Positions 4,804 through 41,458 of a stretch of 64,000 nucleotides of DNA are shown here, one piece after another. This DNA comes from an uncultured Pelagibacteraceae bacterium (lineage in GTDB: Bacteria > Pseudomonadota > Alphaproteobacteria > Pelagibacterales > Pelagibacteraceae), in NCBI GenBank assembly GCA_902612605.1, contig CACMDY010000005.1, positions 31,372 to 95,371 on the forward strand, in the 5' to 3' direction. A program made the translations under genes and the position numbers. The notes under the pieces are model-generated. The model was given only the letters and a program-made list of their open reading frames with translations. It did no database searches and was not told where the DNA came from. The first letter of the stretch is position 1. Every line of letters starts with the position of its first letter.

Positions 4804-6731
4804 GATAAACACTCCTCATATTCTGGTTGTTGATTTTCTTGTTTTTTAGATTTGTAAACGTTTGCAGTTACGTCTGTAGAATTTGCATCGTTTACGTTTT
4901 CCGCTCTTTGTATTGATTTAGATCTGCAGTAATAAAGGCTCTTCAATCCTTTTTTCCAAGCTTGGAAATGGATTTGGTGTAAGTCCCTTTTATGAATATC
5001 TGCAGGTATAAATATATTTATTGATTGTGCTTGTGAAATATGTGGTGTTCTATCTGCACCTAATTCCACAATCCATTTCTGGTCTAATTCAAAAGCCGTT
5101 TTAAATACGTCTTTTTCTTGTTGGGTTAAAAAATCAAGATGAGAAACTGAGCCTTGATTTGTTGTTATACTTGACCATGTTTCATCATCATTTTTACCGT
5201 GTTTCTCTAATAATTTACTTAGATATTTATTTCTAACGTTAAATGATCCAGACAAAGTTTTATGTGTATAACTATTTGCTGCAATTGGCTCTACACCTGG
5301 AGATGTTCCACCACAAATAATTGAAATTGAAGCAGTAGGAGCTATAGCAGTTTTATTTGAAAATCTTTCATTAATTCCATAGTCTGCTGCATCTGGACAT
5401 GCACCTCTTTCATCGGCTAAATCTTTTGAAGCTTGATCAACCTGTTTTTGGATACTTTCAAATATTTTTTTATTCCAAACTTTACTCATCACAGACTCAA
5501 AAGGAATCATTTTTTGTTGGAAGAATGAATGAAGACCCATAACGCCTAGGCCAACACTTCTCTCTTTTAATGCGGAATAAACTGCATCACTAAATGACTC
5601 AGGTGCTTTTTCAGTAAAGTCCGTTAATACGTTATCTAAAAATCTCATTACGTCTGGAACAAAGTTTTCATCGTCTTTCCATTCATCATAAGTTTCTAAA
5701 TTTAAAGATGATAAACAACATACTGCCGTTCTATCTCTACCCTCTTTATCAATTCCTGTTGGTAAGGTTATTTCACTACACAAGTTAGATGTCTTAACAG
5801 TTAAACCAGCAAGCTTATGATGTTGAGGTATCATTCTATTAACTGTATCAATGAAAACAATATAAGGTTCTCCAGTTTCAATTCTTGCAGTTAATAACCT
5901 AATCCATAAATTTCTTGCAGAAACAGTAGCTTGTACTGATTGATCTTTTGGACTTTTTAATGCCCATTGTTCATCTAGTTCTACGGCTCTCATAAATGCA
6001 TCTGAAACTAAAACACCGTGGTGTAAATTCAATGATCTTCTATTTGGATCACCACCTGTTGGTCTTCTCATTTCAATAAATTCTTCTATCTCCGGATGAT
6101 CAATTGGAAGATAACAAGCTGCTGATCCTCTTCTTAAAGAACCTTGACTGATCGCCATTGTCAAAGAGTCCATAACTTTTATAAAAGGAATAATGCCTGA
6201 AGTTTTTCCAACTCTACCAATTTTTTCTCCAATAGATCTTAAGTTACCCCAATAACTTCCAATACCTCCGCCTTTGGCAGCCAACCAAACATTTTCACTC
6301 CATAGATCTAATATTCCAGTTAAGCTATCCCCTGCTTCATTTAAGAAACAAGAAATTGGTAAACCTCTTTTTGTTCCACCGTTTGATAAAACTGGTGTTG
6401 CTGGCATGAACCATAAATTACTTATGTAGTTGTAAAGTCTTTGCGCGTGCAAGTTGTCATCTGCATAATGACTTGCAACTCTTGCAAATAAATCTTGGAA
6501 AGACTCGTTTTCTCCAAGGTATCTATCACTTAGTGTTGCTCTTCCAAAATCTGTTAAATTATTATCTCTAGATCTATCTATTTTAATAGTTATCCCTTTA
6601 GAATTTTGAAACAACTCTGTGTTGTTATTTAGTGAAAATAAGTCTGGTCTTTTGTCATTATTGCTGATTTTTTCCGCCGGTTTATAATCAGAGACAGCCT
6701 TCCTGATTGCCTGAGACAATATTTTGTTCAT
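4794..6731 (-). CDS. nrdA: Class I ribonucleotide reductase, alpha (catalytic) subunit
   Basis: 645 aa. Catalytic features are present: PISCFLNE and CCLSSLNLETY (the active-site disulfide pair), NLCSEITLP (thiyl Cys and Glu), SLYYCRSKS (Tyr pair for radical transfer) and the C-terminal shuttle ECLSCQ. Compared with about 760 aa for E. coli NrdA, the N-terminus is short and I see no ATP-cone before the catalytic core, so dATP overall-activity inhibition through a cone is probably absent. First gene of nrdA-nrdB-DUF1289. The NrdR-like boxes at 6772-6818 indicate NrdR repression. Confidence 0.96.
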   Translation of the reverse strand: MNKILSQAIRKAVSDYKPAEKISNNDKRPDLFSLNNNTELFQNSKGITIKIDRSRDNNLTDFGRATLSDRYLGENESFQDLFARVASHYADDNLHAQRLYNYISNLWFMPATPVLSNGGTKRGLPISCFLNEAGDSLTGILDLWSENVWLAAKGGGIGSYWGNLRSIGEKIGRVGKTSGIIPFIKVMDSLTMAISQGSLRRGSAACYLPIDHPEIEEFIEMRRPTGGDPNRRSLNLHHGVLVSDAFMRAVELDEQWALKSPKDQSVQATVSARNLWIRLLTARIETGEPYIVFIDTVNRMIPQHHKLAGLTVKTSNLCSEITLPTGIDKEGRDRTAVCCLSSLNLETYDEWKDDENFVPDVMRFLDNVLTDFTEKAPESFSDAVYSALKERSVGLGVMGLHSFFQQKMIPFESVMSKVWNKKIFESIQKQVDQASKDLADERGACPDAADYGINERFSNKTAIAPTASISIICGGTSPGVEPIAANSYTHKTLSGSFNVRNKYLSKLLEKHGKNDDETWSSITTNQGSVSHLDFLTQQEKDVFKTAFELDQKWIVELGADRTPHISQAQSINIFIPADIHKRDLHQIHFQAWKKGLKSLYYCRSKSIQRAENVNDANSTDVTANVYKSKKQENQQPEYEECLSCQ

Positions 6732-6771
6732 TAAACTCCCTTATTATCTTTATACTAAAAAATCTAGTAAA

Positions 6772-6818
6772 TAACTAGATATAGTGTGTAGATTTACCTG
6801 ATATACTATATAAATTGT
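6772..6818. promoter_or_regulatory. Tandem NrdR boxes upstream of nrdA
   Basis: Two 16-bp elements, taactagatatagtgt (6772-6787) and atactatataaattgt (6803-6818), each match the NrdR-box consensus acactatatatagtgt at 13 of 16 positions. Their starts are 31 bp apart, the three-helical-turn spacing known for paired NrdR boxes. They sit 41-87 bp upstream of the nrdA ATG, within the promoter region shared with the divergent phosphohexomutase gene. The nrdR gene itself is not in this window. Confidence 0.8.
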
Positions 6819-6892
6819 AAATCAATAGAACATTTATAGAACTTATTAAATATTTATCAATAAAAATTTTAAAAAAATGTACATATATCCAC

Positions 6893-8347
6893 ATGAATAA
6901 TTCGGGAAAAATTGATCCATACGGCTTTCGGGAATATGACGCACGATGGGTATACGAAAAAGACATAGATGAAGATGGAATCGTTCAACTTGGTAAAGGT
7001 CTTGGAACTCAAATAATTAATCATACAAAGAAAAACAATCCAAGAATTATAGTTGGCCAAGATTACAGGTCTTACAGTGAACATATCAAAGAAAAATTAA
7101 AAGAGGGTTTGGTTTCAACTGGGTGCAAAATCGAGGATATAGGATTATCTTTATCCCCAATGGTTTACTTCGCTCAATTTAATTTAAATTCAGATGCAAT
7201 AGCTATGGTTACAGCTAGTCATAATGAAAATGGTTGGACAGGTGTAAAAATGGGTATCAAAAAAGGACTTACTCATGCACCTGAAGAAATGAAAGAACTA
7301 AAAGATATTACTCTCAATCAAAAATTTATTAATGGTAAAGGAAATATGAAAAAAATTGATGGTTTCCAAGATATTTATAAAAATGATTTGATAACAAAAA
7401 ACCCATTAAATAAAAAAATTAAAGCAGTTGTTGCATGTGGTAACGGAACAGCTGGAATATTCGCACCTGAAATTTTAAGAGGTATTGGGTGTGAGGTTAT
7501 TGAACTTGATTGCAACCTTGATTGGACTTTTCCAAAATATAATCCAAATCCAGAAGATTTAGAAATGTTACATGCAATTTCAAAAGCTGTGAAAAATAAT
7601 AATGCAGACATAGGATTTGGATTTGATGGTGACGGAGATAGAGTTGGCGTTATTGACGATAAAGGTAACGAAATCTTTTCAGATAAAATAGGGCTTTTAA
7701 TTGCTAGAAATCTATCAAAAGATCATAAAAATAGTAAATTTATTGTTGATGTAAAATCCACAGGTCTATATTCAAATGATAAAGTATTAAAAGAAAATAA
7801 TTGTGAAACAATTTATTGGAAAACAGGACACTCCCATATTAAAAGAAAGGTAAATGCTGAAAAAGCTTTAGCTGGATTTGAAAAAAGCGGACATTTCTTT
7901 TTTAATGAACCTCTAGGTTACGGATACGACGATGGAATAAATTCTGCAATCCAGGTTTGTAAATTACTAAATAAAAGTGAAAAAAGGATTAGCGAAATTC
8001 TCAACGAAATACCAATAACTTATCAAAGTCCCACAATGGGTCCATACTGTAAAGATAGTGAAAAATATGAGGTTATTAATAAATTGGTTCAGGAAATTAA
8101 GAAAATTAAAGAAGATAAAATTAAAATTGATGATCAAGAAATTAATGAAATACTAACAGTAAATGGAATAAGATTTTCTTTTAAAGATGGATCCTGGGGT
8201 TTAATAAGAGCATCTTCTAATAAACCCTCATTAGTAATAGTAATTGAAAGCGCAACTTCTGAAAAAAGAAAGATAAAAATCTTTGAATTTATTGATAATT
8301 TAATCCAAAAAACTGGTAAAGTTGGGGATTACGATCAAAAAATTTAA
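6893..8347 (+). CDS. Phosphomannomutase/phosphoglucomutase family enzyme
   Basis: 484 aa. Alpha-D-phosphohexomutase with all four signature loops: the phosphoserine loop VTASHNENGWTGVK, the metal loop GFGFDGDGDRVG, the sugar-specificity loop GFEKSGHFFFNEP, and a C-terminal phosphate-binding segment around IRASSNKPSLVI. It interconverts hexose-1- and hexose-6-phosphates for surface polysaccharide or nucleotide-sugar synthesis. AlgC-like dual specificity is likely but the preferred sugar cannot be told. Transcribed divergently from nrdA over a 160-bp gap; followed by the structured element at 8401-8437. Confidence 0.92.
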   Translation: MNNSGKIDPYGFREYDARWVYEKDIDEDGIVQLGKGLGTQIINHTKKNNPRIIVGQDYRSYSEHIKEKLKEGLVSTGCKIEDIGLSLSPMVYFAQFNLNSDAIAMVTASHNENGWTGVKMGIKKGLTHAPEEMKELKDITLNQKFINGKGNMKKIDGFQDIYKNDLITKNPLNKKIKAVVACGNGTAGIFAPEILRGIGCEVIELDCNLDWTFPKYNPNPEDLEMLHAISKAVKNNNADIGFGFDGDGDRVGVIDDKGNEIFSDKIGLLIARNLSKDHKNSKFIVDVKSTGLYSNDKVLKENNCETIYWKTGHSHIKRKVNAEKALAGFEKSGHFFFNEPLGYGYDDGINSAIQVCKLLNKSEKRISEILNEIPITYQSPTMGPYCKDSEKYEVINKLVQEIKKIKEDKIKIDDQEINEILTVNGIRFSFKDGSWGLIRASSNKPSLVIVIESATSEKRKIKIFEFIDNLIQKTGKVGDYDQKI

Positions 8348-8400
8348 AATTCAACTATAAAGAGTTAATAAAGTTTTAGAGAATCGATTAATATATAATT

Positions 8401-8437
8401 GAGGTGGCGGAGGGAGACTGAAACCACCTCGTCTCCT
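8401..8437. other. Compact H-type pseudoknot-like element in a 3' region
   Basis: GAGGTGG (8401-8407) pairs with CCACCTC (8424-8430), and GGAGAC (8413-8418) pairs with GTCTCC (8431-8436). The two stems interleave, so together they make an H-type pseudoknot with 5-nt connecting loops. The element is G/C-rich in a very AT-rich gap between convergent genes and touches the TSUP stop codon. No U-tract follows on either strand. On the minus strand CTCCCTCCGCCA also resembles a tRNA-Ser 3' end, so a tRNA remnant is an alternative. Confidence 0.45.
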
Positions 8438-9269
8438 AAGTCACTAAAAACCTATAAAGAAATAAAGTACCAATAACATAAAGAAAAACACCAAATAACC
8501 TTTGTGTTTTAACTCTATCTAGATCTTGAACTGTTTTTGCTCCAATCCTTGCCATGAATGTTGTTATTGGAACAAATATTATAAATGCTGGTATATTAAT
8601 AAATCCTATGCTTAATGGGATATCAGCTTTTAACATCAAACCAGATGTAAAAAATCCAATTGATCCAAATAAAGCAATTATAAATCCAATAGCTGCAGAG
8701 CTTCCTATTGCTAAGTTAATAGGATAACCAAAGTATCTTAATATAGGAACATTCATCATAGCTCCTGTTATACCCATGGGTGCAGAAATTAATCCTGACA
8801 AAAATCCAAATATTATTCTTGGGAAAATATTAAATTTTTTTTTAATTTTTTTTTTCTTTTCACTTTGTAACAACAAGTAAGCTCCAAAAAAGAAAACAAC
8901 TGCAGAAAAAAAGAATAATAATGTTTTAGTATTCATCAATGCTGCCATCAATGTTCCAGAGAAAACTCCAATTATTACAAATGTTCCATAATTTTTAATA
9001 ATATTAAAATCAACAGCATTATATTTTCTATGTGTTAATACTGAAGCTGTAGCAGTTAAAATTGTTATTGAGAAAGCCGTCCCTACAGATAAATGCATTA
9101 AATAATCTTTATCCACGTTAAATGCTTCAAACACAAAAAATAAAAATGGAACTGAAATTAATCCTCCACCGATACCAAAAAAACCTGCAAAAAAACCAAC
9201 TGGAACAGCGGCTGCCATCATTAAAAAAATAAAATAAATATTATTAATCTCTAAAAGAGTATTATTCAA
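8436..9269 (-). CDS. TSUP (TauE/SafE) family membrane permease
   Basis: 277 aa with about eight membrane segments in two repeats. The first repeat contains GFFAGFFGIGGGLISVPFLFF and the second LSGLISAPMGITGAMMNVPIL, the paired Gly-rich helices of TSUP proteins, which export sulfite or organosulfur anions or carry small carboxylates. It overlaps the dusA stop by 8 bp and is the last gene of the matPQMA-like operon. Given that context, an organic-acid or sulfite efflux role is possible, but the sequence does not decide. It is shorter than, and distinct from, the TSUP gene at 58412. Confidence 0.88.
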   Translation of the reverse strand: MNNTLLEINNIYFIFLMMAAAVPVGFFAGFFGIGGGLISVPFLFFVFEAFNVDKDYLMHLSVGTAFSITILTATASVLTHRKYNAVDFNIIKNYGTFVIIGVFSGTLMAALMNTKTLLFFFSAVVFFFGAYLLLQSEKKKKIKKKFNIFPRIIFGFLSGLISAPMGITGAMMNVPILRYFGYPINLAIGSSAAIGFIIALFGSIGFFTSGLMLKADIPLSIGFINIPAFIIFVPITTFMARIGAKTVQDLDRVKTQRLFGVFLYVIGTLFLYRFLVT

Positions 9270-28553: not shown

Positions 28554-30002
28554 ATGTCTGATTTTTGGAAAAACTACGACTCAAAATCTACTTTTGATGG
28601 TTATATCAGCAAAGAAAAGAAGTTGAGAAGTCATGCTAAAATCATTGCAGGGATACTTGAAAAGTATGGGAAAAAAAAATTACAAGAAATTGAAAAAAAT
28701 TGTCAAAGTACAATAAGTGCTAGGGGAATAAATTTTAGAGTTTATGCTGCAAATAATAGAGCTGAAGAAAAAAAATGGCCTTTAGATATTATTCCTAGAA
28801 TCATACCAAAAAGCCAATGGTTAAAGGTTGCTAAAGGACTTGCACAAAGAGTTAAGGCACTAAATTTATTTATTGATGACGTGTACAATGCAAAAAAAAT
28901 ATTTAAAGATAAAGTAATACCAAAAGAATTAATTTTTAATTCCCCTTTATATTTAAAAGAATGTGAGGGTTTCTCCCCTAAACACAAATCATGGTCAAAC
29001 ATATCTGGTATAGATCTGATAAAAAATATAGATGGAGATTTTTTAGTTTTAGAAGATAACTTAAGAGTTCCATCGGGAGTTTCATATATGTTGGAAAATA
29101 GGATGGTTATGAGAGATATTTTTCCAGAATTATTTACAAGATATAAGGTTTCCTCAGTACATCAATATGCAAATAAATTATATAATTGTATGACAGAGTG
29201 TATTCCAAAGAAAACTACCAACCCACACATGGTTTTATTGACACCTGGTATCTACAATTCTGCTTATTTTGAACACTCCTTTTTAGCTGAACAAATGGGT
29301 ATAGCTTTAGTGGAGGGCAAGGATTTATTTGTTGAAAACGATCACGTCTATATGAAAACTGTTAAAGGACCTTTAAAAGTAGATTGTATTTACAGAAGAA
29401 TTGATGACAATTTTATGGATCCTAAAGTTTTTTTCAAAGGATCATTGCTAGGTGTGCCTGGCGTTTTTAAATGTTGGAGAAAAGGTAATGTTGGAATAAT
29501 AAATGCATTGGGTACAGGAGTAGCAGATGATAAAGCAGTTTATTCATATGTTAATAAAATGATCATTTATTATTTAGGAGAACAACCAATTATTGATCAA
29601 GTTGAAACTCTTCTGTGTGGAGATAAAAAAAATAGAGATCATGTTATAGATAATATTTCAAAATATGTAGTTAAACCTTCCAATGCTTCAGGTGGTTATG
29701 GAATCATGATTGGCCCAAAAGCTTCTAAAGCTGAAAAAGAAGAAATGATTAAAAATATTAAAATAAATCCAAGAAACTATATCGCACAACCTTTGGAAAT
29801 TTTATCAACAGTTCCAACAATTACCCCTGACAATATTGAACCAAGGCATTTAGATTTAAGACCTTTTATATTAACTGGAAAATCTACTTATGTTACGACG
29901 GGAGGATTAACTAGAGTTGCTTTAAAAAAAGGAAGTACAATTGTAAATAGTTCGCAAGGTGGAGGCTCCAAAGATACATTAATTGTTGATAGTAGAAACT
30001 AA
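28554..30002 (+). CDS. Circularly permuted type 2 ATP-grasp protein
   Basis: 482 aa. KALNLFIDDVYNAKKIFKDKVIPKELI, ISGIDLIKNIDGDFLVLEDNLRVPSGVSYMLENR and VKPSNASGGYGIMIGPKAS with the C-terminal DLRPFILTG match the circularly permuted ATP-grasp family (formerly DUF404/407) that co-occurs with Anbu. It probably forms an amide bond on an unknown acceptor. It faces away from the Anbu gene over 114 bp. Its stop overlaps the convergent CaiB gene by 4 bp, so the alpha-E gene usually following is absent. Confidence 0.9.
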   Translation: MSDFWKNYDSKSTFDGYISKEKKLRSHAKIIAGILEKYGKKKLQEIEKNCQSTISARGINFRVYAANNRAEEKKWPLDIIPRIIPKSQWLKVAKGLAQRVKALNLFIDDVYNAKKIFKDKVIPKELIFNSPLYLKECEGFSPKHKSWSNISGIDLIKNIDGDFLVLEDNLRVPSGVSYMLENRMVMRDIFPELFTRYKVSSVHQYANKLYNCMTECIPKKTTNPHMVLLTPGIYNSAYFEHSFLAEQMGIALVEGKDLFVENDHVYMKTVKGPLKVDCIYRRIDDNFMDPKVFFKGSLLGVPGVFKCWRKGNVGIINALGTGVADDKAVYSYVNKMIIYYLGEQPIIDQVETLLCGDKKNRDHVIDNISKYVVKPSNASGGYGIMIGPKASKAEKEEMIKNIKINPRNYIAQPLEILSTVPTITPDNIEPRHLDLRPFILTGKSTYVTTGGLTRVALKKGSTIVNSSQGGGSKDTLIVDSRN

Positions 30003-35171: not shown

Positions 35172-35873
35172 TTATCTTGCAAGTTTAATGAATATATCTC
35201 CCATGCCTGACTGAAGCTGATCTAATGGAGTATTGTTTCGAAGAGTGCAATATCTACCTGTCACCTGGTGCCTATCTATGGCATTAACATTATATTGAGT
35301 GCAGGTTTTGGCTTTGTGTAATAAACCAATGACCAGTTTTCCATCTACAACTGAAACCTGTTTCGTATCTAAATCATTGCCATTACAAAAATATTTTTTG
35401 TTTACCCTTTCAGGAAAATCTGTTTTCCCACAAGGATTTTCAATTGTGAAAACATAAAATTCTTTTTCTATACCTTTAAATTTATGTTTCATTTTAGTTG
35501 TTTTTGAATATTTCATTAAATCACAGGAACATGGAATACAGCATCTATAATATTCACCACATATTTTCTTACCTGTATTATTTTCACTTAAATAAACATA
35601 TTCTGGTACTGCATTTGGACTTATTAAAGAACCTGATACCGCACAATATAATTTATTATATTCAACAAAATCTTCATAAGAGATATCTTTATCAATTATA
35701 TATTTAAAAAATTTAGGACCTGCCGCATTTCTATTTCTGTCTGGGAAAATTTTATTCCAATCATTAACGATATCTTGATAATAGTTTTTTTCTTGAGAAT
35801 TTACTGAATTTGTCGGAATTGAAAAAAAAATAATAAATATAATAAGACTAAGTATATTTTTAATACTATACAT
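35172..35873 (-). CDS. Secreted cysteine-rich protein of unknown function
   Basis: 233 aa. A hydrophobic leader (IKNILSLIIFIIFFSIPTNS, cut near SVNS-QE) is followed by a soluble domain with about nine Cys, including YCAVSG, CGEYYRCCIPCSCDLM (a CxxxxxCCxxCxC cluster), CGKT and KTCTQYN. Cys spacing suggests disulfides or a metal site in the periplasm or outside. I recognise no family. It ends the surface-related run beginning with the fusion gene at 41458, 11 bp after a 47-aa membrane peptide. Confidence 0.7.
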   Translation of the reverse strand: MYSIKNILSLIIFIIFFSIPTNSVNSQEKNYYQDIVNDWNKIFPDRNRNAAGPKFFKYIIDKDISYEDFVEYNKLYCAVSGSLISPNAVPEYVYLSENNTGKKICGEYYRCCIPCSCDLMKYSKTTKMKHKFKGIEKEFYVFTIENPCGKTDFPERVNKKYFCNGNDLDTKQVSVVDGKLVIGLLHKAKTCTQYNVNAIDRHQVTGRYCTLRNNTPLDQLQSGMGDIFIKLAR

Positions 35874-37564: not shown

Positions 37565-37762
37565 TTACTCAAGTAAGCCTAAAATTGAATAAATAACTAA
37601 CCCTATAATTGCAGCAAAGAAAATTAAGAATGAAATTTGACTAAAAATATTATTCTTTGATCTAATTTCTCCCTTTTTGTACTTTCTAATCTGAATTATG
37701 CCAAATCTGATTACTATCAAACCAAGTATTAGTAATAATACTTTAAATAGAAATTCAATCAT
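37565..37762 (-). CDS. Small two-TM membrane protein
   Basis: 65 aa: MIEFLFKVLLLILGLIVIRFGIIQIRKYKKGEIRSKNNIFSQISFLIFFAAIIGLVIYSILGLLE. Two TM helices (4-24 and 43-63) are joined by a basic cytoplasmic loop. It sits 50 bp after the pilin and 44 bp before the FG-GAP gene, same strand. No family recognised. Confidence 0.68.
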   Translation of the reverse strand: MIEFLFKVLLLILGLIVIRFGIIQIRKYKKGEIRSKNNIFSQISFLIFFAAIIGLVIYSILGLLE

Positions 37763-37812
37763 TTGTTCTAATCATCTTCTTTCATATATTCTAAAAGCTT
37801 TAGACTGCACGA

Positions 37813-38316
37813 TTATTTTAAACTTACATCTATATCATTACTGATGGAGTCATCTGATCCACAACCATCTTTAAAACATGCCCTCAATTGTAACTTCGTT
37901 CCATTAGTGCTTATACTAACTTGACCAGGAGTGAAGCCTGTTCTAGATCTAATACATGGAAGAGAGGTATCATATGGGTTTCGATATGATTTTAATACAC
38001 CTTCATCTATACCTGGCGTGACTGATCCTCTTAAAGATCTTACATTAGAAAGAGCTTGCATTATATTAAATGCTCCTGTTGCTGTGTTATAGTTTGAGCA
38101 ACTTAATTCTCCATTCATCGCATCTGAATTTCCAATCTGACAAAGTAATAACTCTGTTTCAATATATTTGACAACAGAAGTGTAACAGCTTCTTGAAGCT
38201 GAAGCTTTTGCACCACTTGTATAACCACTATAAGCAACTACACCTACAGCAGCAAGAATACCTATGATTGCTACAACAACTAATAGTTCAATTAATGTGA
38301 AACCTTTATTTTTCAT
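37813..38316 (-). CDS. Type IV pilin-like protein (prepilin)
   Basis: 167 aa. KNKGFTLIELLVVVAIIGILAAVGVVAYSGY is a textbook prepilin leader: short basic leader, Gly-Phe cleavage point, Glu5, then a hydrophobic helix. The soluble part has three possible disulfides (CYTSVVKY, CQIG, CSNY, CIRSR, CFKDGCG). It overlaps the preceding gene by 11 bp. Prepilin peptidase and PilB/C/Q are not in this window. It could be a pilus subunit or a pseudopilin for uptake or adhesion. Confidence 0.92.
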   Translation of the reverse strand: MKNKGFTLIELLVVVAIIGILAAVGVVAYSGYTSGAKASASRSCYTSVVKYIETELLLCQIGNSDAMNGELSCSNYNTATGAFNIMQALSNVRSLRGSVTPGIDEGVLKSYRNPYDTSLPCIRSRTGFTPGQVSISTNGTKLQLRACFKDGCGSDDSISNDIDVSLK

Positions 38317-38857
38317 TTTTTTTATTTGCTTTGTAATTTTCCATCCATTTTTTAAAAACTACTATAGCATCATTCATGTCTTTTGTTTTATTTGGATGAT
38401 TTTTTGCTCTACCTAACATAGTTGCAATAACATTTACTTGATATTTTATTGGTCTTTTTTTTATAGCTGAAACAGTAAACAATGCTTTTTCCTTATCTTT
38501 AAAACCTAAGCCTTTTAAGGTTGTCTCTGGTTTATAATCTGAAAATAAAGAAAGATTTAATGGTTTAAATTTTTTATCCTTGATGAGTTTATTCATTGGC
38601 ATTTTATCAACTATTCCAAAGATTTTTTTTGTATATATTTTATCTAACTCAATTTTTTTTGTGCCATCAAAACCAAATAAAGTAATTTTAAATTTTTTTG
38701 ATTTGTCTAATTTTGTAACTAATTTTATATATCTTTTGTGAAAGCCTTTAATTTCTTTTTGATACAAATCTTTTGATCTTTTATATTCTGGATGATTGTA
38801 ATTAGGTGTATTAAGGACTAACAATCTACATTTCCATAGATATTTTTTAAAACTCAT
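38306..38857 (-). CDS. Unknown protein, possibly DUF4174-like
   Basis: 183 aa. KYLWKCRLLVLNTPNYNHPEYKRSKDLYQKEIKGFHKRYIKLVTKL and FKITLFGFDGTKKIE resemble the DUF4174 pattern (a W-k-x-R-ll-l start and a late l-l-G-x-D-G strand). The C-terminal 80 residues (KPLNLSLFSDYKPETTLKGLGFKDK to WMENYKANKKNEK) match nothing I know. Very Lys-rich, no signal peptide. It lies 9 bp after the fusion gene and overlaps the pilin start, so it is co-translated with both. Confidence 0.6.
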   Translation of the reverse strand: MSFKKYLWKCRLLVLNTPNYNHPEYKRSKDLYQKEIKGFHKRYIKLVTKLDKSKKFKITLFGFDGTKKIELDKIYTKKIFGIVDKMPMNKLIKDKKFKPLNLSLFSDYKPETTLKGLGFKDKEKALFTVSAIKKRPIKYQVNVIATMLGRAKNHPNKTKDMNDAIVVFKKWMENYKANKKNEK

Positions 38858-38866
38858 TAAAAAATA

Positions 38867-41458
38867 TTAATTATAAATTTTGTCTCTTACAAGCTTACTT
38901 AATAAACTATATCCAAGTTCATTCATATGTAGTGGATCTTCATCGTAAAACTTATCATAACCAGCATTTATCATTGGTGTTGTAATATCAACATAATCCC
39001 ACATTTTTAAATTGGTTAAGTGTTTTTTTATCTTTGAATTCGCATCTAAAATTGTTGTCATTAAGTCTCTTCTAAAGGGACTGGGTTTAATTGAAATAAA
39101 AAAACATTTAGCTTTTGGCAATTTTTCTTCAACTTGGTTAGAAAATAATGAAAATTCTTTTAATAATTCATCACTATCCATTCCATAACCAATGTCATTA
39201 TCTCCGGCATAAAAGAAAAGATTAGATGGGTTTAAAGGAGCAACCAATCTATCAAAATATCTTCTACAAGAGACTAAAGTTGAACCCCCAAAGCCTAAAT
39301 TATAAAGATTATTTATTGATAAATCATTTTTGGCATTATCCCACATTTTAAAAGTTGAACTACCATACAAGGCAACACTGTTATTTGTTTTTGTCTGTTG
39401 AAAAGAATTATGCTCTAATTCTCTAACATCTAATTCAAACTCTTCTTCAACTGGACTGACTAAATTTACGTTAGTTTTCAAATTCTCTATTTTATCTATG
39501 TTGTCTTGAACATTTTTAGCCAAATCAATAGCTTCTTCTACATAAGATCTAAATTTAGTTCTGTAATTATCTAAAAAACTTTTCATCTCCTCTTGATTTT
39601 CTGGATCTTTAATGTGATCACTTATAGTTATTGGCTCCTTAATAACTGCTGAATATATTGTTTTAGAAACTGGATAATCAAAATTAGCAAGGGCAATTGG
39701 AATTAGTTTTGGTTTAGGATTAAGTTTAAATGCAAGATTAAATGCACCAGCTTTAAATGGTCCTGGAGATGTTATTGTTTTATTATCTTCTGTTTCTGAT
39801 GTTCCTTCGGGCGCAATTACAATCGGTTGTTTTTTATTAAATACCTTTTGAGCTTCATCAAAAAGCTTTTGTTTTCTTAATTTTTTTTCCTCTTCGCTTT
39901 CGTCCAACTTATCAGACTCTGGGGTATGAACGAAAATGTAATCTAAATTTTCATAGTAATTATATCTCCAAAATTCTGTATTTCTACTTGTTCTAACGAT
40001 ACGTTGGCCTCCATCATTATACTTTGGATGTAATATTTTTGAACTGATGAAATGACTATCGATTGAAAATGAATGCCCATTTGCAAGCTGATTATCATCT
40101 ATAGCTGCTAAGTGATTGTAGAAAAAAATATTTGTTGGTTCATCTGGCAAATTTTCCCAACCCTTGATTACATATTTAACATTATCAAAAGCTTTTGTGA
40201 AATTTGAATTGGTTAACTCTCTTAATTTTGTTTTATCTGAGTTACTAGAAGAATTTGAAACTCTATTATAAATAATATTTAATTGGCTGTGGAAACGAGA
40301 CTCTCTTTCTAAATTATTTAAGGTATCTTTTATTAAACTAGATAATGATTTTTCTATCTCATTCCCTTTAATAAGTAGTTCGTAAACTACATCAAATGCC
40401 ATTGCATAAGTATGAGTACTCTTCAACAAATGTGGAATACTATATAACTTAGAACTAGCAGGTATTCTCGCAGTATTATCTTTCAATAATAAATTAACAA
40501 ATTCTAATTCGTTTTCCGCTGAATATTTTGTTAGACCAGTTGCACTTTGTTGGAAACGTCCTAGCTGCCACAATTGTCTTTTGAAAATCTTTATTGATAA
40601 TTCAGGGTCAGAAATAATCAGATTTTCAAGTGCTTCGTTGGAAATATGTAAAACTTTTGTATCCCTGGTAGATTTAATTGTATATGGATTAAAAAAATCT
40701 CCTTTCCCTGAAGATAAAGTTAGAGCAATACCAGCTCTAGTTAGAGTTCTAAAATTTCTTCTTATTTTTCCATTAATAAAGTTATGGAATAAGCCATCAA
40801 CTTTACCACTTAATAATATCTTTAAACCTTTAGAAACATCTCCCTCTTTGACTATATATTGATTTGATGAATACATCTTAATATTACCTAATTTAATAAA
40901 CTTTTCTAAGTCATCATCAGTAAGTGTTGAAAAAAAAGTAGCAGATTTAATTCTATGTATATTTGTAATACTTTTTTCTGATGGGATGCCTGGAGAAATT
41001 TGTATTTCATCATCTTTATACAAAGTGTTTAAATTTCTTGAAGAGACAAGCAGTTGGAAAGAAAAAAAAGAAATTGCTGAGTATAATGTTGATATAAGTT
41101 TACTATTTTTTTGTTGTAAATTTCTTAAATCATCTAGTTTTATCGAGATATATTCTGTTCCACCTTCAATAAATATTTCACCCATAAACCTATTGGGTTG
41201 ATTCAGTCCAGATATACCTAATGGTATTGCAGGCTTTGTTATTTTTGCAAAGGTTATAGATTTAGTTTCAAAATACTTAGTAAATGTAGCTTTGCCTTTA
41301 ATTAAAAAATAAATGTTTTCTGAAATTTGATGCTGCTTTGCTAAAACTTCATCACTTGCAGCTATTATATGTTCTGATATTTCATCTATTAGTCCAAAGG
41401 ATTCTTTTAGATTTCCCAAATCAAAGCCATTTTGCTGAAATAATTCAGATAATTTCAT
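38867..41458 (-). CDS. cNMP-binding / acyltransferase / SGNH-hydrolase fusion protein
   Basis: 863 aa, with no TM start. Residues about 20-130 and 165-300 look like two cyclic-nucleotide-binding beta-barrels (FFSTLTDDDLEKFIKLGNIKMYSSNQYIVKEGDVSKGLKILLSGKV is clear; the first is degenerate). A PlsC-like acyltransferase follows at about 430-640, with NHLAAIDD (H-x4-D) and IVIAPEGTSE (EGT motif), then LIPIALANF. The C-terminal ~175 residues are a complete SGNH/GDSL hydrolase: LYGSSTFKMW (Ser), NLGFGGS, FYAGDNDIGYG (Asn) and DPLHMNELGY (Asp-His). So an enzyme that could both add and remove acyl groups, perhaps under nucleotide control. Heads the pilin operon. Confidence 0.88.
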   Translation of the reverse strand: MKLSELFQQNGFDLGNLKESFGLIDEISEHIIAASDEVLAKQHQISENIYFLIKGKATFTKYFETKSITFAKITKPAIPLGISGLNQPNRFMGEIFIEGGTEYISIKLDDLRNLQQKNSKLISTLYSAISFFSFQLLVSSRNLNTLYKDDEIQISPGIPSEKSITNIHRIKSATFFSTLTDDDLEKFIKLGNIKMYSSNQYIVKEGDVSKGLKILLSGKVDGLFHNFINGKIRRNFRTLTRAGIALTLSSGKGDFFNPYTIKSTRDTKVLHISNEALENLIISDPELSIKIFKRQLWQLGRFQQSATGLTKYSAENELEFVNLLLKDNTARIPASSKLYSIPHLLKSTHTYAMAFDVVYELLIKGNEIEKSLSSLIKDTLNNLERESRFHSQLNIIYNRVSNSSSNSDKTKLRELTNSNFTKAFDNVKYVIKGWENLPDEPTNIFFYNHLAAIDDNQLANGHSFSIDSHFISSKILHPKYNDGGQRIVRTSRNTEFWRYNYYENLDYIFVHTPESDKLDESEEEKKLRKQKLFDEAQKVFNKKQPIVIAPEGTSETEDNKTITSPGPFKAGAFNLAFKLNPKPKLIPIALANFDYPVSKTIYSAVIKEPITISDHIKDPENQEEMKSFLDNYRTKFRSYVEEAIDLAKNVQDNIDKIENLKTNVNLVSPVEEEFELDVRELEHNSFQQTKTNNSVALYGSSTFKMWDNAKNDLSINNLYNLGFGGSTLVSCRRYFDRLVAPLNPSNLFFYAGDNDIGYGMDSDELLKEFSLFSNQVEEKLPKAKCFFISIKPSPFRRDLMTTILDANSKIKKHLTNLKMWDYVDITTPMINAGYDKFYDEDPLHMNELGYSLLSKLVRDKIYN

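Follow-up and report, generated by a model that had tools for sequence, protein, structure and literature searches.

The window (the whole stretch of 64,000 nucleotides of an uncultured Pelagibacteraceae genome that was analysed) contains a full-length open reading frame with an ATG start that encodes a protein of 863 amino acids (Table 1). Pfam identified in it a cNMP_binding domain (CNB, PF00027; residues 195–282, 36.9 bits against a cut-off of 27.5), an Acyltransferase domain (PF01553; residues 502–590, 30.8 bits against 23) and a Lipase_GDSL_2 domain (residues 715–851, 34.8 bits against 32.9), with no match to patatin and no separate match of its own for a first CNB domain. The motifs NHLAAIDD, APEGTSE, GSS, GDND and DPLH, all quoted in a preliminary description of the gene, were found in the protein, and the four domains proposed there for a single chain were borne out, three of them by Pfam and the tandem CNB by Foldseek. 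The architecture had also been called unusual, which agrees with our finding that the whole-protein layout is spanned by none of the Pfam or NCBIfam models; our literature search found no paper describing a CNB-PlsC-SGNH architecture. By its domains, the protein belongs to the PlsC/LPAAT superfamily and to the SGNH hydrolases, and as a whole it is a new architecture. An AF2 model of the full-length chain was confident only in the CNB domains and part of the SGNH domain, with a pLDDT of 51 for the acyltransferase domain (AT).

Table 1 Features of the 863-amino-acid protein and its locus, in window positions unless a locus is named
Feature	Position	Strand	Evidence
863-aa protein, CNB-CNB-linker-acyltransferase-SGNH	38867..41458	-	ORF call, Pfam, relatives, alignment
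CNB-like domain 1, residues 1–150	41009..41458	-	Foldseek tandem CNB and alignment
CNB-like domain 2, residues 165–310	40529..40966	-	Pfam PF00027 and PKG alignment
Helical linker, residues 311–425	40184..40528	-	Family-specific, conserved; no Pfam match
PlsC/LPAAT-like acyltransferase domain (AT), residues 426–650	39509..40183	-	Pfam PF01553, hhalign
H449, acyltransferase His (NHL)	40112..40114	-	Invariant in 11-row alignment; lost in f357
D467, proposed catalytic Asp partner (HX17D)	40058..40060	-	Invariant where H449 present; lost together in f357
PEG motif of acyltransferase, residues 550–552	39803..39811	-	Alignment, long relatives
SGNH hydrolase domain, residues 685–863	38870..39406	-	Pfam PF13472; PDB relatives
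SGNH block I GSS, residues 699–701	39356..39364	-	Motif conservation in long relatives
SGNH block III GDND, residues 752–755	39194..39205	-	Motif conservation in long relatives
SGNH block V DPLH, residues 841–844	38927..38938	-	Motif conservation in long relatives
DUF4174-like gene	38306..38857	-	9-bp gap, downstream of the 863-aa gene
SGNH-fused relatives of family f357 with AT His and Asp lost	L149:1053-3713, L150:7179-9791		

In contigs of GTDB species, we kept 80 of 116 loci encoding relatives. They comprised 49 loci from Pelagibacteraceae (85–99% identity, one of them cut by the contig end) and 31 from other marine Alphaproteobacteria (~55% identity). The full-length form occurs in at least 48 of the Pelagibacteraceae loci and in the 31 other alphaproteobacterial loci, and also in a gammaproteobacterial family (f66, 30% identity) and an alphaproteobacterial one (f357). 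Within the genus the gene is accessory, being carried by 4 of 36 sampled relatives and missing from several complete or near-complete congeners. The dN/dS values within Pelagibacteraceae were 0.01–0.17 in every domain, CNB1 being the most relaxed, and the gene is therefore maintained rather than present by chance; some members of a very abundant ocean lineage thus keep a CNB-AT-SGNH gene under purifying selection. A mobile origin from phages or plasmids was considered and rejected: there was no viral or phage match, and the plasmid matches were those of Persicobacter and of SGNH-only proteins. Two CNB-AT genes (L145:7729-9765 and L151:2080-5040) are broken in frame, by two TAG codons in genome G791 and one TGA in G968, which may reflect decay, sequencing error or recoding.

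Structure comparison by Foldseek matched the ~300 N-terminal residues of the model to the tandem CNB modules of PKG and PKA (E 1e-12), which supports a sequence-degenerate first CNB domain and upholds, by structure prediction, the cNMP folds that had been proposed for this region. Most of it was modelled with a pLDDT of 55–88 per 10-residue block, with lower values around residues 81–90 and 140–165, and TIGR03896 aligned weakly to residues 34–293. Cyclic-nucleotide control of the enzyme, which the preliminary description had considered possible, found no support. In our alignments, the CNB1 cassette (GISGLNQPNR) has kept the Arg and lost the Glu, which is replaced by I, V or W among relatives, and the CNB2 cassette (GIALTLSSGKGDFFNPYTIK, aligned with PKG) has lost both residues. 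Searches that do give matches in control genomes detected no cyclase of class I (PF01295), class III (PF00211) or class IV/CYTH (PF01928) and no GGDEF protein in this 99.3%-complete Pelagibacteraceae genome, streamlined to 1.36 Mb, where the 863-aa protein is the only CNB-fold (PF00027) protein found. Since both the cassette residues and the genomic cyclase fail, the protein falls outside the cyclic-nucleotide-responsive class. That cAMP or cGMP gates acyl addition and removal through the CNB domains is thus very improbable, although the closest folds are the PKG/PKA tandem CNBs and CNB1 retains the cassette Arg; external uptake or a cyclase of unknown class would be possible sources of cNMP.

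The tandem CNB most likely acts as a scaffold, mediates docking or senses another ligand. If some other small molecule bound in the CNB pocket gated the enzyme, there would be a precedent in the regulatory subunit of trypanosomatid PKA, which also has a tandem CNB with an altered cassette and binds purine nucleosides independently of cyclic nucleotides (PMC10959531); its structures 6hyq, 6hyi and 6flo were among our Foldseek matches. Such gating would be consistent with the maintenance of the tandem fold by purifying selection and with the conservation across phyla of the non-canonical CNB1 cassette, G[IVW]Sx[LF]xxPxR. However, the trypanosomatid subunit regulates a kinase and binds nucleosides via a cassette Glu that contacts the ribose and replaces the Arg-phosphate contact, and this Glu has no clear counterpart in the 863-aa protein. 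We consider gating by another small ligand rather unlikely.

The AT domain is homologous to PlsC over its whole length (hhalign probability 98–99%), and H449, Arg489 and PEG are invariant in an 11-row alignment. The preliminary description took both enzymes to be active from their motifs; this stands for the SGNH domain, whose motifs are intact, but does not for the AT as read from NHLAAIDD. In fact, the Asp of this string five residues after the His (D454) is a Glu in most of the relatives of ~55% identity, and other relatives have S, P, T or M there. By contrast, every sequence that has the His also has D467, 18 residues past H449. Profile alignment with ordinary PlsC proteins indicated an 18-residue insert after the His, with the hhalign gap falling after D454 and not before it. 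In a model of the AT alone (pLDDT 53), a helix begins directly after D467, at low confidence, and the top fold matches were GPAT and mycobacterial PatA at non-significant E values (0.07–0.2). It seems more likely that the AT uses an HX17D site (H449 and D467) rather than HX4D. A changed His-to-Asp spacing accompanying a changed substrate has a precedent in SalA of marine roseobacters, an LPAAT with an HX5D motif whose product is a sulfur aminolipid (PMC8319176). Because the same genome encodes a separate ordinary PlsC, the 863-aa protein would be an extra lipid acyltransferase and not the housekeeping enzyme.

The two f357 relatives (genomes G908 and G1004) have replaced the AT His by Ser together with D467 by Cys while their SGNH domain is intact. 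Their AT is predicted to be a pseudo-acyltransferase, and the pair of acyl-adding and acyl-removing activities would therefore be dispensable in some lineages. These proteins favour the alternative that the AT domain is largely non-catalytic, with a binding or regulatory role, and that the SGNH esterase does the chemistry. However, the His, D467, Arg489 and PEG are all invariant in the 11-row alignment, which includes SGNH-less proteins, and we regard a non-catalytic AT as improbable for the family.

The PDB relatives of the SGNH domain are acylhydrolases, including lysophospholipase L1. Its blocks I (GxS), II (the G of GFGG), III (GxND) and V (DxxH) are all present and conserved in nearly all long relatives. 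Among 86 of these, the AT His, PEG, GFGG and GDND occur in all or nearly all, and GSS and D-x-LH are missing in about one each. The SGNH site looks active. Standalone SGNH proteins ~35% identical to this domain are encoded in two genomes (L090 in G267 and L100 in G079) beside a gene that by eye resembles an OpgC-like membrane acyltransferase, a further case of an SGNH gene with an acyltransferase neighbour.

The pairing of an acyl-adding with an acyl-removing domain in one chain, also part of the preliminary description, was supported by two observations in relatives. In Persicobacter (Bacteroidota; locus L115), the protein is split into a 655-aa CNB-CNB-AT protein (5893-7860) and a 209-aa SGNH protein (7862-8491), with a gap of one base between their genes. 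In families f40, f209, f221 and f312, only CNB-CNB-AT is found and the SGNH part is missing. Five SGNH-less genomes, from four families and two classes, were compared, and in four of them the sole gene for an AXE1 (PF05448) esterase adjoins the CNB-CNB-AT gene, divergent to it in G688, G791 and G968, while in G070 the two genes converge and overlap by 20 bp; in the fifth, G074, it lies 2.6 kb away. AXE1 was absent from six genomes with the SGNH-fused form, a seventh (G908) having only a weak partial match elsewhere; genome G785 was uninformative as its contig ends at the gene. The varying orientation of the AXE1 gene argues against a merely frozen operon. In the tree, the forms accompanied by AXE1 cluster together while the position of the Persicobacter sequence is unresolved, and one replacement may therefore suffice instead of five independent events. 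As judged from these loci, an acyl-esterase partner appears to persist through an exchange of fold between SGNH and AXE1. That the partner is retained and yet swappable speaks for a coupling in which acyl groups are added to and removed from one ester substrate or related ones, and suggests that the opposing acyl reactions work as a pair. The swap thus provides, across bacteria, a sequence-level argument for their functional coupling, for which the related Gammaproteobacteria are a possible test bed.

The domain combination sets the protein apart from known systems. With PlsC/LPAAT enzymes (PF01553; OlsA, SalA) it shares whole-domain homology, the NHx...D dyad region and the conserved Arg and PEG, but it has the insert of ~18 residues after the His, with the Asp at H+18 instead of H+5 (the motif of SalA being HX5D; PMC8319176), and its AT is fused to CNB and SGNH domains. 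SGNH/GDSL acylhydrolases such as lysophospholipase L1 and PAF-acetylhydrolase-like enzymes possess all the same catalytic blocks, but they are often standalone or exported, whereas here the domain follows an acyltransferase at the C-terminal end of a protein without an evident signal peptide. The mycobacterial protein acetyltransferase Pat also joins a CNB to an acyl-transfer domain, which in Pat is regulated by the CNB, and NCBIfam NF058543 gave a weak match to L086; however, Pat has a GNAT fold, acetylates lysines and truly binds cAMP, and it lacks a hydrolase domain. Neuropathy target esterase (NTE, PNPLA6-7) resembles our protein in having several CNB domains ahead of a lipid acyl hydrolase, but it has a patatin domain and a transmembrane anchor, and no acyltransferase is present. 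NTE/PNPLA6, for which direct cAMP binding has not been shown (PMC6995513), is a further precedent for CNB folds without a demonstrated cyclic-nucleotide response.

The domains, motifs, conservation, fission and fusion, exchange of the esterase partner and absence of the tested cyclase families can be read directly from the sequences; enzyme activities, substrates, topology and direction of control are inferred. We give an even chance to the 863-aa protein being a cytosolic or peripheral-membrane enzyme for the remodelling of lipid acyl esters, with repurposed CNB domains. The PlsC-type domain would add an acyl chain, donated by acyl-ACP or acyl-CoA, to a lyso-lipid by means of H449 and most likely D467, and the tethered SGNH domain would strip an acyl chain or a short-chain ester off that lipid or one related to it, so that one chain would carry out deacylation and reacylation. 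The two N-terminal CNB folds may have been repurposed as a scaffold, for docking to membranes or proteins, or as a sensor of some ligand that is neither cAMP nor cGMP. As a more speculative extension, which we hold rather doubtful, a non-cyclic-nucleotide ligand at the tandem CNBs might determine how far a single polypeptide adds acyl chains to a membrane lipid or takes them off, as an acyl-ester switch whose esterase half (SGNH or AXE1) is exchangeable between lineages.

As for the substrate, a lyso-lipid acceptor would be in keeping with the PlsC-type fold. Typical substrates of AXE1 esterases are acetylated sugars. AXE1 as the other possible partner is a hint that the esters are short-acyl or sugar-linked, and with its preference a phospholipid would be a poorer match than a short-acyl substrate or a glycolipid; we give a glycolipid or an aminolipid the same odds as a phospholipid. 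It is possible, though on the unlikely side, that the protein makes and turns over a special lipid (for example an aminolipid or glycolipid) instead of remodelling phospholipids, the AT making the ester and SGNH or AXE1 trimming it. Both the swapped AXE1 partner, which points to short-acyl or sugar esters, and the altered His-to-Asp spacing, which in the HX5D SalA marks a substrate-specialised marine LPAAT (PMC8319176), would be consistent with such a role. However, no gene for lipid head-group biosynthesis was recognised beside the 863-aa gene in the loci read.

In those Pelagibacteraceae loci that were examined, the 863-aa gene has the DUF4174-like gene as its neighbour and possible operon partner. 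Conserved neighbours were nevertheless rejected as a clue to function, DUF4174 and pilin genes being found only in Pelagibacteraceae and other alphaproteobacterial loci having different ones. CP_ATPgrasp_2 (circularly permuted ATP-grasp) genes occur near CNB-AT genes in three lineages (window 28554-30002, L057:3-1058 and L144:10349-11800); they adjoin the CNB-AT gene in G688 and are some kilobases off in the window and L057, and this proximity is probably coincidental. Also in the window (35172-35873) is a gene for a conserved Cys-rich exported protein of 233 amino acids, without Pfam or NCBIfam matches, which by eye resembles the methylamine dehydrogenase light chain.

A variable pilin cassette is flanked by the DUF4174 gene on one side and by a membrane ORF of 65 aa on the other (window 37565-38857; loci L006–L053). 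The window has a single type IV pilin-like gene (37813-38316; N_methyl, PF07963), and among 45 Pelagibacteraceae loci such genes, arranged in tandem, number 0, 1, 2, 3, 4 and 5 in 19, 12, 8, 3, 1 and 2 loci, respectively. The first 40 residues of the encoded proteins are on average 86% identical, and their C-terminal part ~22%. Hypervariable regions with pilins are already known from SAR11 (PMC2217521), and this tandem cassette may be a locus of phage-receptor or adhesion diversity.
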